Positions 8,107 through 21,704 of a stretch of DNA of 64,000 nt are shown piece after piece. The DNA lies in assembly GCF_019733395.1 (NCBI RefSeq), contig NZ_JAIHOO010000001.1, positions 2,852,501 to 2,916,500 of the forward strand. Reading direction: 5' to 3'. Below the pieces are notes generated by a model, which had not been told where the DNA came from, ran no database searches, and saw only the letters and a program-made list of their open reading frames with translations. The translations under genes were made by a program, and so were the position numbers. The number at the start of each line of letters is the position of its first letter. Position 1 is the stretch's first letter. The DNA is from Lysobacter sp. BMK333-48F3 (GTDB taxonomy: Bacteria; Pseudomonadota; Gammaproteobacteria; Xanthomonadales; Xanthomonadaceae).

Positions 8107-9936
<1,830 letters not shown>

Positions 9937-10914: not shown

Positions 10915-11273
10915 GTTTGCGGGCGCCCGTGGCCGCGACCGAGCGCGCCGTGCCAGCGCAGCCTCGCGCCCTGCGGCCGTCCGGGATCCCCGGTTCCGGC
11001 CTGGGTGCGCCGGCGCCCGCCGATCCGCCCGCCACGACCGGCACACGCACGCGCCCGGCCGCGCATCGGCCACCGGTCCGGCCATCGCCGCACGGATCCG
11101 CCTTGTTCCGCACGCGTCCGCACGGCGCCGCGCGCGCATCGCGCCGCACGGCCCGGGGCGGGCGCTGTGCTACCATTTTGCGGCTCGATCCGGCGGTTTC
11201 GCAGCCTTCGGGAACCCCGTCGCGCACCTCTCCCGCACGTTCCCGACGTACCCGACCCCACGAGGTTTTTACG
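10915..11273. other. Gene-free region upstream of the aminotransferase
   Basis: About 360 bases with no supported ORF. It probably holds the aminotransferase promoter; TACCAT at about 11172 is a weak -10 candidate. GAGG at 11262-11265 is the ribosome binding site of the next gene. Confidence 0.4.
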
Positions 11274-12479
11274 ATGCCCCAGCTCGCCCGGCGCATCGGT
11301 CGCGCCAAGCCCAGCGCGATCATGCAGGTTGCCGAAAAGGCCAAGCGGCTCAAGGCCGAAGGCCGCGACATCATCAGCTTCTCGATCGGCGTTCCCAACT
11401 TCCTGCCCGGCGAGCACGTCTACGCCGCGGTGCGCGAAGCGCTCGCCAAAGACAGCGGCCAGTACGGCAGCAACCGCGGCGCCGACGCGCTGCTGGATGC
11501 CTTCATCGAGCACATGGGCAAGATCGGCCTGACCGGCTACGGCCGGGTCAACTGCGCCACCGGCATCGGCGCCAAGCATGTGATCTACAACATCGCCGAA
11601 GCGCTGCTCGACGAAGGCGACACGATCGCGTTCCCGACCCCGTACTGGACCAGCTATCTCGACATCGCCGAGATCGTCAACGCCAAGATCGACCTGCTGC
11701 CGTGCCCGGCTTCGCAGGACTACAAGCTCACCCCGGAGCAGCTCGACGCCGCGCTGGCGAAGAAGCCCAAGGTGTTCTTGTTCAACAACCCGTCCAACCC
11801 GACCGGCATGGTCTACGGGAAGGAAGAAATCGACGCGCTGGCCGACGTCGTGGCCAAGTATCCGGACACCTGGATCATCACCGACGACATCTACAACCGG
11901 ATGGTGTTCGACGGCCTGGGCTACCACAACTTCGTCCACGCCCGTCCGGAATTGCGCGACCGGGTGATCTTCATCGACTCGCTGTCCAAGACCTACGGCA
12001 TGCCGGGTTGGCGCGTGGGCTTCATGGCCGGGCCGGAGTCGGTCGCCCAGGCCGTGACCACGATGAACTCCAACCACATCACCAACGTGCCGGAGATCGT
12101 CACCGCCGCCGCGGTGGCCGCGCTGGCCGGCCCGCAGGACGTGCCGACCCAGAAGTGCGCCGAGTTCCAGGCCAAGCGCGACCAGGTCATGGCGGTGATG
12201 AACGCCATCCCGGGCGTGATCTGCCCGCGTCCGCAGGGCGCGTTCTACGTGTTCCCCGACATCAGCGTCGCGTTCGGCAAGACCCACCAGCCCAGCGGCC
12301 TGAAGATCGGCAACGACATGGACCTGTGCAACGCGCTGCTGGAAACCAAGGGCGTGGCCTGCGTGCCGGGCTCGGCGTTCGGCGAGACGCGCGCGCTGCG
12401 CATCAGCTACACCTGTCCGACCCCGCAGCTGGCCCCGGGCCTGCAGCGCTTCCAGGAATTCTTCGCCGAGCTCGCCTGA
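11274..12479 (+). CDS. Class I/II pyridoxal-phosphate aminotransferase
   Basis: A 401-residue fold-type I aminotransferase, most like bacterial aspartate/aromatic aminotransferases. The PLP lysine is Lys239 in SLSKTYGMPGWRVG; the substrate and cofactor pocket shows NNPSNPTG (Asn175) and TDDIY (Asp204). The start at 11274 follows GAGG and gives the family N-terminus LARRIGRAKPSAIM. The donor and acceptor cannot be fixed from sequence: aspartate/2-oxoglutarate is the family default. Its neighbour mdh, two genes on, uses oxaloacetate, which would fit an aspartate enzyme. Confidence 0.88.
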   Translation: MPQLARRIGRAKPSAIMQVAEKAKRLKAEGRDIISFSIGVPNFLPGEHVYAAVREALAKDSGQYGSNRGADALLDAFIEHMGKIGLTGYGRVNCATGIGAKHVIYNIAEALLDEGDTIAFPTPYWTSYLDIAEIVNAKIDLLPCPASQDYKLTPEQLDAALAKKPKVFLFNNPSNPTGMVYGKEEIDALADVVAKYPDTWIITDDIYNRMVFDGLGYHNFVHARPELRDRVIFIDSLSKTYGMPGWRVGFMAGPESVAQAVTTMNSNHITNVPEIVTAAAVAALAGPQDVPTQKCAEFQAKRDQVMAVMNAIPGVICPRPQGAFYVFPDISVAFGKTHQPSGLKIGNDMDLCNALLETKGVACVPGSAFGETRALRISYTCPTPQLAPGLQRFQEFFAELA

Positions 12480-15136: not shown

Positions 15137-18055
15137 TCATTCCCCTCGCGCGAGCAAGCGCATCGCCAGCGCGCGCAGCGCCGCCGGCTTGAGCGGTTTG
15201 GGCAGGAAGTGCCAGCCGCGCTCGAGCGCGCGCGGGCGCAGGCCGGGGTCGGCGTCGGCCGACATCAGCACCAGCGGCGGCAGCCCCTGCCACAGCGCTT
15301 GCAACTGCGTGGCCAGTTCGAAGCCGGTGCGGTCGCCGAGCCGGTAATCGAGCAGCAGCAGCTCGGGCCTCGGCGCGTCGGCGGCCAGGGCCAAGGCCTG
15401 CGCCGCGCTGCCCGCGCTCTCGACCGCGCAGCCCCAGTCGGCCAGCAAGCCCTGCGCGGCCAAGCGCGAGGGCGGGTCGTCGTCGACCACCCAGACGCGG
15501 CGGCCGCGCAGCATCGGGTCGTGCTCGGTGTCCGCCATCGCCGGAGCGGGCTGTACCGGTGCCGACGGGGGCTGCGCGACCTCCGCCTGGCGCGCATAAG
15601 GCACCTCGACCGAGAACACGCTGCCGCGCCCGGGCCAGGAGCGCACCGCGATGCGATGGCCGAGCAGCTGCGCGACCCGGCGCACGATCGCCAGGCCCAG
15701 GCCGGCGCCGCGCGCCGGCGCTTCGACGCCGACGTCCAGGCGCTGGAATTCTTCGAAGATCAGTTCGCGCTTGGCTTCCGGAATGCCCGGGCCGGTATCC
15801 CAGACCTCGATCCGCACGCCCTCGCGCAAGCGCCGCGCGCCGAGCACGATGCGGCCCGCGCGCGGAGTGAACTGCAAGGCGTTGGAGAGGAAGTTCTGCA
15901 CGATCCGGCGCAGCAGCACTTCGTCGCTGTCGACCATCGCGCCGCTGGCGATGCAGTGCAGGCGCAGACCGCGCGATTCGGCCAGGATGCGGAACTGGCC
16001 TTCGATCGCGTCGAACACCCGCGCCAGCGGCAGCGCGCCGCGGCGCACTTCCAACGCGCCCGATTCCAGCCGCGAGATGTCGAGCAGGCTGGACAGGATG
16101 TCGTCCTGCGCGGTCAGCGCGGCTTCGATCCGGTCGGCCAGTTCGCGGCTGTCCGCATCGACCCGCCGGCGCAGCGAGGACAGATACATCCGCGCCGCGT
16201 TCAAGGGTTGCAGCAGGTCGTGCACCGCCGCGGCGACGAAGCGGGTCTTGTAGCGGTTGGCGCGCTCGGCTTCGCCCTTGGCCGTCTGCAGGTCGCTGGT
16301 GCGCTGCTCGATGCCGCGTTCCAGGCTGTCGGCCAGGCTGCGCAGGTCGCGCGCGGCCTGCTTGTAGGCGGTGATGTCGGCATAGCTGGTGACGAAGCCG
16401 CCGTCGGGCATCGGGTTGCCGCGGATCTCGATCACCGTACCGTCGGGGCGCTCGCGTTCGTGCAGATACGGCTGGCCGCGCTGCAAATGCTCGAGCCGGC
16501 GCCGGATCGCGTCCTCGGGATCGGGGCCGAGCAGGCCGCGGCGCGCGTTGTAGCGGATCAGGTCCTCGATCGGCCGGCCGATCTGCAGCAACTCGGGCGG
16601 GTAGCGGAACAGCTCGGCGTAGCGCCGGTTCCAGGCCACCAGGCGCAGCTGCGAGTCGACCACGCTGATGCCTTGCGGCAGATGCTCCAGGCTCTGGCTT
16701 TCGCCCGGGCCGGCCTGATGCGCGGCCTGGACCACGCCGTCGCGCGCGTTGCGCAGCGCTTCGGCGTGCAGCTCGACCATCTTCTCCAGTTCCTGCCGGC
16801 TGCGCAGGCGCAGCGCGGCGATGCGGTTGCGCTGCAGGATCAGCAGCGCGACCGAGACCAGCAGCAGCCAGGCGCCGGCGGCGACGCCGCGCGCGATCCA
16901 GGCGGTGCGCAGGCTCGGCGTGGTGTCGCGCAGCAGGTGCAGGGTCCAGCGCTCGCGCGGCAGGTGCAGCGATTGCCACAGCATCGGCTCGCGCATTGCC
17001 GGGTCGCGCAGCCGCACCACCCGCGCGCCGTCGCCGACTTCGCGCTGGACCCGGAATTTCGCCGGCAGCAGCCGCTGGCCCTGGTACTGCCGAGTCAGGC
17101 GCAGTTCGCGCTGCTGCGCCGCGCTTTGCGGCGCCAGCACGCGATAGCGCCACTGCGGCTGCGCGCTGAGGAACACCACGCCGTTGGCGTCGCTGAGCAG
17201 GACCAGGTCGCCGCGTCCGCTCCAGTCCGAGCGGATGTCTTCCAGCTCGACCTTGACCGCGACCGCGCCGACCGCGCCGCCGCGCTCGTCGTGGATCGCG
17301 CGGGCGATGAAGTGCCCGGGCACGTGGGTGGTGACGCCGATGGCGTAGAACTCGCCGGCGCCGTGGGCCATCGCGCGCTGGAAATACGGGCGGAACGCGT
17401 AGGAGTGGCCGACGTTGCTGTTGGCCAGGTTCCAGTTGCTGGCGGCGATGCCGATGCCGGCGGCGTCGATCAGGGTCAGGGTGCTGGTGCGGTTGGCGAA
17501 ATTGAGCTGGACCAGGCGCTCGTTGGCGCGTTGGCGCTGGGCGCGGTCGCCAGGGTTGGCCAGGGTCGCGCGCAGCTGCGGGTCCAGCGACAGCACCGCC
17601 GGCATGATCCGGTAGCGGTCGATATGCTGCTCGATCACCTGCGCCCGCTGCCCGAGCAGGGCGCGCGCCTCGCCGGCCTGGCGCAGCAGCGCCTGCGCAT
17701 ACGCCACCCGCCCGGCGACCAGCGCCGAAAGCAGCGCGCCGGCCACGATCAGGACCAGCCAGAGGGTGTTGCGCAGTTGGCCGGAATCGACCAGGCGCAC
17801 GCCGGTGAGGCCGTTCTGCGGGCGGGCGCGGAAGCGCGCGGCCGGGCCGAAGTACGTGCCGCGGCCGTCGCGGTAACCGTGCGGGTTCTCCACCGAGCCG
17901 GTCAGGCCCAGGTGCAGCACGCGGGTCTTCTCCTTGGTAGGCGTCCACACCGCGCGTCCGGCGGCGGTGGTGCCGGGGTTGTCGCCTTGCAGGTCGTGGC
18001 CGAAGAAGTAGGCCGCGCTGAGCGCGTAGCGCGGCCGCTCCAGCGACCATTCCAC
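15137..18055 (-). CDS. Hybrid sensor histidine kinase with a porin-derived N-terminus
   Basis: A 972-codon hybrid kinase whose first 96 codons are a piece of the neighbouring OprP-type porin (93-96% identical stretch), joined in frame to the kinase. The kinase part has a first membrane helix (98-118), an extracytoplasmic Cache-like sensor of the DctB kind (YFQRAMAHGAGEFYAIGVTT), a second helix near 395-415, a PAS_7-like domain (about 470-570), HisKA with His612 in VHDLLQPL, an HATPase (WDTGPGIPEA; GAGLGLAIV) and a receiver with Asp903 (LLLDYRLGD). The DctB-like sensor beside dctA suggests C4-dicarboxylate sensing. The only possible start in frame is a GTG inside the porin fragment. The native start has been lost or the join is an assembly error. 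Confidence 0.82.
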   Translation of the reverse strand: MEWSLERPRYALSAAYFFGHDLQGDNPGTTAAGRAVWTPTKEKTRVLHLGLTGSVENPHGYRDGRGTYFGPAARFRARPQNGLTGVRLVDSGQLRNTLWLVLIVAGALLSALVAGRVAYAQALLRQAGEARALLGQRAQVIEQHIDRYRIMPAVLSLDPQLRATLANPGDRAQRQRANERLVQLNFANRTSTLTLIDAAGIGIAASNWNLANSNVGHSYAFRPYFQRAMAHGAGEFYAIGVTTHVPGHFIARAIHDERGGAVGAVAVKVELEDIRSDWSGRGDLVLLSDANGVVFLSAQPQWRYRVLAPQSAAQQRELRLTRQYQGQRLLPAKFRVQREVGDGARVVRLRDPAMREPMLWQSLHLPRERWTLHLLRDTTPSLRTAWIARGVAAGAWLLLVSVALLILQRNRIAALRLRSRQELEKMVELHAEALRNARDGVVQAAHQAGPGESQSLEHLPQGISVVDSQLRLVAWNRRYAELFRYPPELLQIGRPIEDLIRYNARRGLLGPDPEDAIRRRLEHLQRGQPYLHERERPDGTVIEIRGNPMPDGGFVTSYADITAYKQAARDLRSLADSLERGIEQRTSDLQTAKGEAERANRYKTRFVAAAVHDLLQPLNAARMYLSSLRRRVDADSRELADRIEAALTAQDDILSSLLDISRLESGALEVRRGALPLARVFDAIEGQFRILAESRGLRLHCIASGAMVDSDEVLLRRIVQNFLSNALQFTPRAGRIVLGARRLREGVRIEVWDTGPGIPEAKRELIFEEFQRLDVGVEAPARGAGLGLAIVRRVAQLLGHRIAVRSWPGRGSVFSVEVPYARQAEVAQPPSAPVQPAPAMADTEHDPMLRGRRVWVVDDDPPSRLAAQGLLADWGCAVESAGSAAQALALAADAPRPELLLLDYRLGDRTGFELATQLQALWQGLPPLVLMSADADPGLRPRALERGWHFLPKPLKPAALRALAMRLLARGE

Positions 18056-18446
18056 GCCGGTGCGGCGGCCCTGGTAGATCGCCTGGGAAGCGGCCGGCAG
18101 CCTGATGGAGCTGTCGGCCGCTTCCCAGGCGATCTACCAGGGCCGCCGCACCGGCGTGGAATGGTCGCTGGAGCGGCCGCGCTACGCGCTCAGCGCGGCC
18201 TACTTCTTCGGCCACGACCTGCAAGGCGACAACCCCGGCACCACCGCCGCCGGACGCGCGGTGTGGACGCCTATCAAGGAGAAGACCCGCGTGCTGCACC
18301 TGGGCCTGACCGGCTCGGTGGAGAACCCGCACGGTTACCGCGACGGCCGCGGCACGTACTTCGGCCCGGCCGCGCGCTTCCGCGCCCGCCCGCAGAACGG
18401 CCTCACCGGCGTGCGCCTGGTCGATTCCGGCAGCCTGCGCAACACC
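17765..18446. repeat. 332-bp inverted repeat (17765-18096 / 18115-18446) within porin copies
   Basis: Both arms are porin codons in opposite directions, separated by 18 bases. They match except for one base near 17940 (Thr versus Ile codon) and three near the outer end (17776-17782), where the left arm passes into kinase sequence. The outer ends share GGTGTTGCGCAG, a 12-base microhomology at the kinase junction. Confidence 0.85.
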
Positions 18447-19788
18447 GACAAGATCGTGCGCAACGGCGTCGAGGCGCTGTGGATCGACGGCCCCTGGTCG
18501 GCCCAGGCCGAGTACCTGCACGCCACCGCGCAGCGCGACAACGGCGCGCGCGACTTCAGCGCCGACGGTTACTACCTCACCGGCAGCTGGGTGCTGACCG
18601 GCGAATCGCGCCCTTACAGCGGCAACAACGTCGGCAACGTCAAGCCCGCCCACCGCTACGGCGCGGTCGAACTGCTGGCCCGCTACGGCGAACTCGACCT
18701 GGACGACGGCGGCATCGCCGGCGGCCGCCAGCGCGACCTGACCCTGGGCGTGAACTGGTACCTGACCAGTCACTTCAAGTTCCAGGCCAACTACGTGCGG
18801 GTGAAGGCCGACAAGGGCCTGCTGTCGGCCGATCCGGAGGTACTGGAGATGCGGGCGCAGATGCAGTTTTGATGGAGCCGGGAATGGGGAATCGGGAATA
18901 GGGAATGGTTAAAGCCGGTGCAGCTGTGCGCCCTGGAGTCCAGGGTCCAGGCGAGTAAGCTGCAAGCATCGGCGCTGCCGCTTTGCCGATTCCCCATTCC
19001 CGGCTCCATCAAAACTGCATCTGCGCCCGCATCTCCAGTACCTCCGGATCGGCCGACAGCAGGCCCTTGTCGGCCTTCACCCGCACGTAGTTGGCCTGGA
19101 ACTTGAAGTGACTGGTCAGGTACCAGTTCACGCCCAGGGTCAGGTCGCGCTGGCGGCCGCCGGCGATGCCGCCGTCGTCCAGGTCGAGTTCGCCGTAGCG
19201 GGCCAGCAGTTCGACCGCGCCGTAGCGGTGGGCGGGCTTGACGTTGCCGACGTTGTTGCCGCTGTAAGGGCGCGATTCGCCGGTCAGCACCCAGCTGCCG
19301 GTGAGGTAGTAACCGTCGGCGCTGAAGTCGCGCGCGCCGTTGTCGCGCTGCGCGGTGGCGTGCAGGTACTCGGCCTGGGCCGACCAGGGGCCGTCGATCC
19401 ACAGCGCCTCGACGCCGTTGCGCACGATCTTGTCGGTGTTGCGCAGGCTGCCGGAATCGACCAGGCGCACGCCGGTGAGGCCGTTCTGCGGGCGGGCGCG
19501 GAAGCGCGCGGCCGGGCCGAAGTACGTGCCGCGGCCGTCGCGGTAACCGTGCGGGTTCTCCACCGAGCCGGTCAGGCCCAGGTGCAGCACGCGGGTCTTC
19601 TCCTTGATAGGCGTCCACACCGCGCGTCCGGCGGCGGTGGTGCCGGGGTTGTCGCCTTGCAGGTCGTGGCCGAAGAAGTAGGCCGCGCTGAGCGCGTAGC
19701 GCGGCCGCTCCAGCGACCATTCCACGCCGGTGCGGCGGCCCTGGTAGATCGCCTGGGAAGCGGCCGACAGCTCCATCAGGCTGCCGGC
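18093..19788. repeat. 803-bp inverted repeat (18093-18895 / 18986-19788)
   Basis: The C-terminal two thirds of the porin gene plus 24 bases beyond its stop are present in both orientations around a 90-base loop. I saw no difference between the arms where compared, and the translations are identical. The inner ends fall in GGGAATGGGGAATCGG, one of the short intergenic repeats of this genome. Confidence 0.88.
18105..18872 (+). pseudogene. Truncated inverted copy of the OprP-type porin
   Basis: An open frame of 255 codons, identical in sequence to the last 255 residues of the complete porin on the opposite strand. It lacks the signal peptide and the first 148 residues, and has no ribosome binding site before its internal ATG, so it is unlikely to yield a working porin. 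It is one arm of the 803-bp inverted repeat. Confidence 0.8.
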
Positions 19789-20220
19789 GCGCGAGGCGGC
19801 GACGCTTTCCATGCTGACCGGGGTCTTGAAGTAGCCCACGCGGACCTTGCCCAGATCCGCGCCGAACAGCGCCTTGGTCTCCATGCGCAGGGCGACGTCG
19901 AGCCACAGCTTGGACTCGAAGTCGTAGACCGCGGTGAAGTCGTAGACGTCCTTCTTCTTCAGGTTCATGCCGAACTCGCGCCGGCGGTAATGGCCGTCGT
20001 CGCGCAGCGCGGTGGCTGCGCTGCCGTAGCCGCGATCGGCGGAGAAATCGACCACGTCGTAGGCCCAGTTGGCGGTCGCCGACAGTTCGGTGCCGTCGGC
20101 GAAGGCGTACTTGGTCGGCCAGTTTTCCAGGGACAGGCCGTCGCCGGCCTGGGCGAGCGGGGCGGCAGCGGCGAGTGCGGCGGCGGTCAGGACGGGGATA
20201 TAGCGGGAAAAACGCGGCAT
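19009..20220 (-). CDS. OprP/OprO-type outer-membrane porin
   Basis: A 403-residue porin of the phosphate-selective porin O/P family. It has a Sec signal peptide (residues 1-25, ending AQA), alternating beta-strand sequence with paired short turns, and a C-terminal Phe in RAQMQF as recognised by the BAM complex. The family includes pyrophosphate- and phosphate-selective pores, but here the gene stands next to dctA and a dicarboxylate-like kinase, so organic-acid uptake is an equally good guess. It is the only complete copy; two partial copies follow on its left. Start ATG is clear. Confidence 0.9.
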   Translation of the reverse strand: MPRFSRYIPVLTAAALAAAAPLAQAGDGLSLENWPTKYAFADGTELSATANWAYDVVDFSADRGYGSAATALRDDGHYRRREFGMNLKKKDVYDFTAVYDFESKLWLDVALRMETKALFGADLGKVRVGYFKTPVSMESVAASRAGSLMELSAASQAIYQGRRTGVEWSLERPRYALSAAYFFGHDLQGDNPGTTAAGRAVWTPIKEKTRVLHLGLTGSVENPHGYRDGRGTYFGPAARFRARPQNGLTGVRLVDSGSLRNTDKIVRNGVEALWIDGPWSAQAEYLHATAQRDNGARDFSADGYYLTGSWVLTGESRPYSGNNVGNVKPAHRYGAVELLARYGELDLDDGGIAGGRQRDLTLGVNWYLTSHFKFQANYVRVKADKGLLSADPEVLEMRAQMQF

Positions 20221-20381
20221 CGGACGGGCTCCATCGGTAGGTCGAGGGGCCGTCCTGGCCGCAGGGCGCCGTGCCGGACGCAGGGCGTCCGGCCGCGGGC
20301 GGTCAACGGGGGCGATCGACGGGGTCGATCAACGGGTTCGATCAGATGGGCGCCGGTCGCGGCGCCCGGATCGAGCGGCGA

Positions 20382-21704
<1,323 letters not shown>

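Follow-up and report, generated by a model that had tools for sequence, protein, structure and literature searches.

How did part of a porin gene come to run in frame into a neighboring sensor kinase gene of Lysobacter sp. BMK333-48F3? We addressed this question in a window of 64,000 nucleotides, by which we mean the whole stretch analyzed (NCBI RefSeq assembly GCF_019733395.1, contig NZ_JAIHOO010000001.1, positions 2,852,501 to 2,916,500 of the forward strand). From right to left, in the reading direction of the minus strand, the locus holds the gene of a dicarboxylate symporter of the SDF family, the gene of an OprO/OprP-type porin, a zig-zag of porin copies and the gene of a hybrid sensor kinase. 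We found that the porin copies follow each other in direct, inverted and direct orientation, and that fold-back template switching is probably the mechanism that best accounts for them, whatever its venue. As to this venue we are undecided, an event in the cell and an artefact of the library or the assembly being close to evenly balanced.

Layout of the porin copies

The first copy is the intact porin gene (19009-20220, minus strand), already recognized as such in a preliminary description of this locus. It encodes 403 aa and matches the Pfam model Porin_O_P (E value of 4.9e-71), and no NCBIfam model matched it. Among the matches listed in a protein search (best 120 of 384), the top one was the porin cluster P0121 of L. 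firmicutimachus (10 members; 94% identity over 93%), and the porin's own sequence had no separate entry among them. The 3' two thirds of this gene, its stop codon and a first arm resembling a repetitive extragenic palindrome (REP) form the right arm of a large inverted repeat (18986-19788, minus strand). The left arm (18093-18895, plus strand), in the middle of the zig-zag, is the second copy and repeats the 3' part of the porin in inverted orientation. The two arms are identical over 803 nt, with zero mismatches, and extension by the tool to 806 nt brings in one mismatch (18896/18985). A chance origin of such an exact inverted repeat is excluded. Between the arms lies a loop of 90 nt (18896-18985), hereafter turn 1, whose two ends carry inversely oriented REP-like repeats of the GGGAATGGGGAATCGG type. 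The perfect inverted copy, the loop and the repeats flanking it are all as first described.

The REP-like element is built of tandem 7-bp units (GGGAATS), which often form inverted pairs and are found genome-wide, for example at G000:C1:2100302-2100359. Its 16-mer motif GGGAATSGGGAATSGG gave 338 matches in the genome, overlaps counted (140 forward and 198 reverse).

Turn 2 falls on a quasi-palindrome of the porin gene that is already present within the intact first copy. It consists of GCCGGCAGC, 8 nt (18102-18109) and GCTGTCGGC, with one mismatch (18093-18118). The first arm of the quasi-palindrome is wholly kept at the join, where the overlap amounts to 4 nt if exact and to 8 of 9 nt if the mismatch is counted. 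From there a third copy, direct and partial, extends over 322 nt (17780-18101, minus strand). The second arm pair (17780-18101 and 18110-18431) measures 322 nt and contains two mismatches (18097 and 17937). Since the first nine bases of the third copy (18093-18101) are also part of the inverted copy, 18097 belongs to the latter, and 17937 is the single change in the third copy proper, in agreement with the one differing base reported earlier. At 17937, the base of the first copy is present in 19 of 19 related genomes of the genus.

At the third junction, porin sequence gives way to kinase sequence between 17780 and 17779, beside a 12-nt word common to porin and kinase (17765-17776, minus strand). 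The preliminary description had noticed this word and placed it at the junction; the word is indeed there, but the exchange point lies just outside it, 3 nt beyond.

Around the zig-zag, no RNA family of Rfam was matched in 17000-20400 and a promoter scan of 17400-20500 found none; in this latter range we counted three terminator-like sites, compared to a mean of 1.5 in shuffles. The symporter gene occupies 20382-21704 (minus strand). Elsewhere in the window, an intergenic region with many CCCCCTTTG and CAAATCCCCC words (1771-2129) carries a perfect inverted pair of 114 nt, 131 nt apart.

The locus in related genomes

The comparison with related Lysobacter genomes, proposed in the preliminary description, gave a uniform picture. 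All 19 other genomes of the genus have the porin once at this locus, followed by an intergenic stretch and by a separate kinase, and the zig-zag is found in 1 of 20 genomes. The same single-porin arrangement was seen in eight named Lysobacter loci, possibly overlapping the 19 genomes. Elsewhere in the genome, 7 of the 19 relatives have a distant porin-like match (68-74%). Furthermore, seven of the 19 (L088, L089, L093, L094, L096, L097 and L101) show, by visual inspection, an inverted REP-like pair in the interval separating porin from kinase.

The porin differs from that of the nearest relative at 113 of 1,212 sites. A copy as old as this split would be expected to have acquired around 15 changes per approximately 320 bases on its own lineage, and only one was seen, in about 313 bases. 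Hence either the event is young, or conversion keeps the arms alike, or it never took place in the cell. The earlier suggestion that the copy may be old is not supported by these numbers.

A likely substitute start codon for the kinase

The native part of the kinase (15137-17779, minus strand) contains the domains dCache_1, PAS_7, HisKA, HATPase_c and Response_reg and is 91% identical to the kinases P0002-P0004 (880 aa each). Its best NCBIfam match was the NahK/ErcS family, at 365.5 bits and thus below the cut-off of 400. The third porin copy enters the kinase in frame, so that the longest open reading frame (15137-18055, minus strand) comprises 972 aa, with Porin_O_P at residues 2-97. In the nearest relatives (L088, L089 and L008), intergenic REP-like repeats are followed by GTG CTG AAC CAC CCC CGC CAA CTC CGC. 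The kinase of the window is native from the CAA codon onward, and about six codons plus a few bases ahead of it are lost.

An in-frame GTG contributed by the porin copy (17798-17800, minus strand) stands seven codons ahead of the first kinase residue and is the likely substitute start, judging from its position. By eye, the same Q of relatives is preceded at a distance of six or seven codons by a GTG, ATG or TTG, and no clear Shine-Dalgarno sequence is present either here or in these relatives. Starting at this GTG, the protein would begin with VRLVDSGQLRNTLWLVL and comprise 887 aa, compared to MLNHPRQLRNALWLIL and 880 aa in P0003. The loss of the native start had thus been correctly described; however, as the porin GTG is almost at the native start position, the 96-residue porin extension that had been proposed along with it is not required, and we expect a near-normal kinase product. 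The protein database does contain a fused form (P0001, a cluster of three sequences, 968 aa), which would include porin residues. When residues 1-95 were searched among kinase-sized proteins (932 candidates), P0001 was the sole match. A transcript running through the locus would hold a self-complementary stretch of 803 nt, which might affect expression.

Further zig-zags in the same assembly

Our sample of the genome combined 398 kb taken near REP sites with 800 kb distributed along the contig (1.18 Mb distinct), and we scanned it for inverted arms of at least 60 nt and at least 93% identity, using 16-nt seeds and pairs within about 9 kb. Outside the window, this sample contained three further gene-level zig-zags. 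The first (L136 15359-16770, corresponding to G000:C1:3817958-3819369) is located at the cytidylate kinase gene cmk (TIGR00017 over cut-off) and has perfect arms of 612 and 174 nt. The second (L144 8111-9363, G000:C1:1328111-1329363) lies at the gene of a sulfate-binding protein (NF008022 over cut-off) and has arms of 460 and 341 nt without mismatch. The third (L217 18799-19546, G000:C1:4848799-4849546) follows an S8 peptidase gene (PF00082) with arms of 183 nt (zero mismatches) and 196 nt (one), and enters a small gene without Pfam match, lipoprotein-like by eye, whose start codon is gone.

In L144 and L217, the first turn is by eye a hairpin right behind a stop codon, a palindrome of 38 nt in the case of L144, and in L136 it appears to lie beside a very GC-rich stretch. 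At turn 2, we estimated by eye an overlap of about 8 nt at L144 and about 7 nt at L136. In the nearest relative, the L217 locus has a terminator-like stem and then some 100 bases including the ATG of the small gene; these bases are gone here. Similarly, some 100 very GC-rich bases are missing at the cmk locus. At L144 a native loss is not evident, though the intergenic part fails to align with that of the relative G008. Counting the window, native sequence beside the turn is therefore missing at three of four loci, and a start codon is lost at two.

DNA searches of the other 19 genus genomes detected no second or inverted copy at the L136, L144 and L217 loci. Likewise, four relatives scanned over 400 kb each (1.6 Mb) gave zero zig-zags; the only pairs that the scan picked up there were those of L197, measuring 100 nt (4 mismatches) and 60 nt (2), and of L220, measuring 104 nt (7). 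The zig-zag count leaves aside the inverted pair at 1771-2129 of the window and L125, where 240-nt inverted arms with one mismatch lie within an intergenic repeat tangle (10998-11715). Next to the L144 zig-zag, 9414-9567 is an intergenic dispersed repeat with matches of 77-88% at many sites in its own and other genus genomes. Given the bases sampled, the chance of all three sampled zig-zags falling in the BMK333-48F3 genome is 0.08, or 0.03 with L125 as a fourth, and 0.11 from the evenly spaced samples alone (1.198 Mb used, 1.181 Mb distinct; the window, found first, is excluded). The excess of zig-zags over the relatives is suggestive only.

Fold-back template switching as the probable mechanism

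Five observations point to fold-back template switching: the direct-inverted-direct order together with the identity of the arms; the position of turn 1 in an inverted REP-like pair of the kind found at the same place in the seven relatives named above; the position of turn 2 on the porin quasi-palindrome, whose first arm is retained whole as folding predicts; the single porin and separate kinase of the other genus genomes; and the same design at L136, L144 and L217. Venue aside, we regard this as the best mechanism, with good though not full confidence. A polymerase would copy in the direction from porin to kinase until the nascent strand folds back at the REP-like hairpin behind the porin stop codon, after which 803 bp of porin would be copied in reverse. 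A second fold-back at the small porin quasi-palindrome would lead to about 313 bp being copied forwards, and the strand would finally return to the original template at the kinase start, beside the 12-nt common word. We infer these polymerase steps and their order, as well as the use of the porin GTG by the kinase.

SbcCD and other repair genes

No genome had a match to the SbcD model over cut-off, neither in the genus (0 of 20, with one weak match) nor in the family (0 of 119, with seven weak matches), the relatives included. For SbcC, all 20 genus genomes gave weak matches and none passed the cut-off of the model. In 14 control genomes, the SbcD model matched 13, including E. coli, and 8 of them over cut-off; the SbcC model matched all 14 and only 1 over cut-off, which makes SbcC the weaker test. 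Where SbcCD is lacking, long palindromes might persist. All 20 genus genomes encode exonuclease I (ExoI; C-terminal domain model), exonuclease VII (ExoVII; large subunit) and RecJ; among these three genes we found no repair loss private to the BMK333-48F3 genome.

We tentatively propose, as a reading that we hold at somewhat below even confidence, that small inverted triplications formed by fold-back have recently arisen in a burst in a lineage devoid of SbcCD. These would have been seeded at terminator or REP hairpins, about a dozen per genome (extrapolated from three in 1.18 Mb), and would have rewritten the starts of neighboring genes, the porin-kinase scar being one that gave the kinase a new start codon.

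Several points weigh against the fold-back mechanism. Relatives that equally lack SbcD show no zig-zags in the 1.6 Mb scanned, so that loss of SbcCD alone is insufficient. With an exact overlap of only 4 nt, turn 2 could also be a plain join, and base 18097, which belongs to the inverted copy, would be left the same by such a join. At the third junction, bases 17777-17779 match the kinase side only (CAA versus AGC) even though they lie on the porin side of the 12-nt word, and a simple slip between words is therefore insufficient. Finally, the porin-kinase zig-zag was seen in one assembly of one strain.

Cell or artefact

The preliminary description had offered template switching, an invertible segment and an assembly artefact as possible origins. 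Switching fits the three junctions and the arm map refutes the invertible segment, while an artefact keeps about an even chance in our estimate. It concerns the venue and overlaps with the mechanism: because of the hairpins, few true reads would have been obtained, and the assembly would have incorporated chimeric molecules or a wrong bridge instead. Indeed, the zig-zags are confined to one assembly (three in 1.18 Mb versus none in 1.6 Mb of four relatives), their copies are almost identical, with a single mismatch in the six arms of the sampled loci, and they sit at hairpins or GC-rich sites, beside which native sequence is lost at most loci and two start codons have gone. The assembly furthermore includes small extra contigs (2,388 and 351 bp) and a run of 27 N, a gap or a mask. 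The pattern is similar to that of amplification chimeras, most of which are inverted and show deletions along with complementarity of 2-21 nt (PMC1855051). However, the turn 2 overlaps (4 nt here, about 8 at L144 and about 7 at L136) are short for the usual k-mer walk, L144 has no evident loss and hence no gap needing a bridge, and the assembly of a REP-rich genome into one 5.22-Mb contig points to long reads, which are usually unamplified.

An origin in the cell comes close to an even chance. It would be a rearrangement of the tandem inversion duplication (TID) type in a lineage without SbcCD, with the kinase end trimmed at once or later. The absence of SbcD and SbcC matches over cut-off speaks for it, as do the open kinase frame with a start at nearly the native place, the resemblance of L144 to an uncut form, the very short turn 2 overlaps and the single large contig, probably built on long reads. 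In E. coli lacking SbcCD and RecA, palindromes yield inverted chromosome duplications; however, in the sbcDC single mutant these went undetected and RecA loss was needed (PMC3315005), which weakens the parallel. Also against the cell are the zig-zag-free relatives without SbcD, the presence of ExoI, ExoVII and RecJ with no private loss of any of the three, and the identity of the copies, which demands recent events or gene conversion.

That the molecule is nonexistent and the software alone took a wrong path through a small-k graph is one part of the artefact reading and in itself improbable. By eye, a program walking the graph could pass in either direction through the 38-nt palindrome of L144, the long stem of L217 and the REP arms, and a join over a short overlap leaves the same turn 2 bases as folding. 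However, usual assembly k values far exceed the 4 nt of turn 2.

It is very improbable that the porin segment was selected as a useful N-terminal part of the kinase: the fused protein P0001 is in the database, but it stands alone among the 932 candidates, its three members may stem from a single genome annotated in different ways, and a start giving the native length is available. An invertible segment acting as a phase switch has a negligible chance, for although long inverted arms exist, they are absent in 19 of 19 relatives, and exchange between either arm pair would do no more than flip the loop of 90 nt or that of 8 nt, with no promoter or gene altered.

If the zig-zags are real, long near-perfect palindromes stand in a natural chromosome, which would provide a test bed for the fate of terminator and REP hairpins in the absence of SbcCD. 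Should they be artefacts, an assembly rated 99.99% complete holds false zig-zags, which have put the chimeric protein P0001 into databases.

Comparison with known systems

In the titles and abstract openings of the literature searched, such a feature is not named for Lysobacter; this covers those parts of the papers and makes no claim of absence from the literature. As to systems known from elsewhere, the window feature is similar to chimeras of multiple displacement amplification in having inverted joins of less than 10 kb with short complementarity (2-21 nt) and intervening deletions, but those chimeras arise in vitro (PMC1855051). It also resembles the interstitial inverted triplication of yeast known as ODIRA (origin-dependent inverted-repeat amplification) in its inverted central copy. 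However, ODIRA units hold a replication origin and keep the distal sequence (PMC4689423), whereas the third copy of the window is partial. In quasi-palindrome template-switch mutation, the polymerase likewise changes template at an imperfect inverted repeat; those changes are local, while synthesis here would run over hundreds of bases.

The TID of Salmonella (Kugelberg et al. 2010) reportedly consists of direct-inverted-direct copies that turn at short inverted repeats and may later be trimmed. The window has three copies with the middle one inverted, and its turns fall on inverted repeats that probably existed before, namely the porin quasi-palindrome and the REP-like pair seen by eye in the seven relatives. 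It differs from the Salmonella TID in that it is only about 1 kb in size, its outer copy is shortened, and the far junction has lost native sequence, the third copy stopping at 17780 with the native kinase start gone. If it did arise in the cell, for which the chance falls just short of even, the porin-kinase zig-zag would be a small inverted triplication of the TID type, trimmed at its kinase end.

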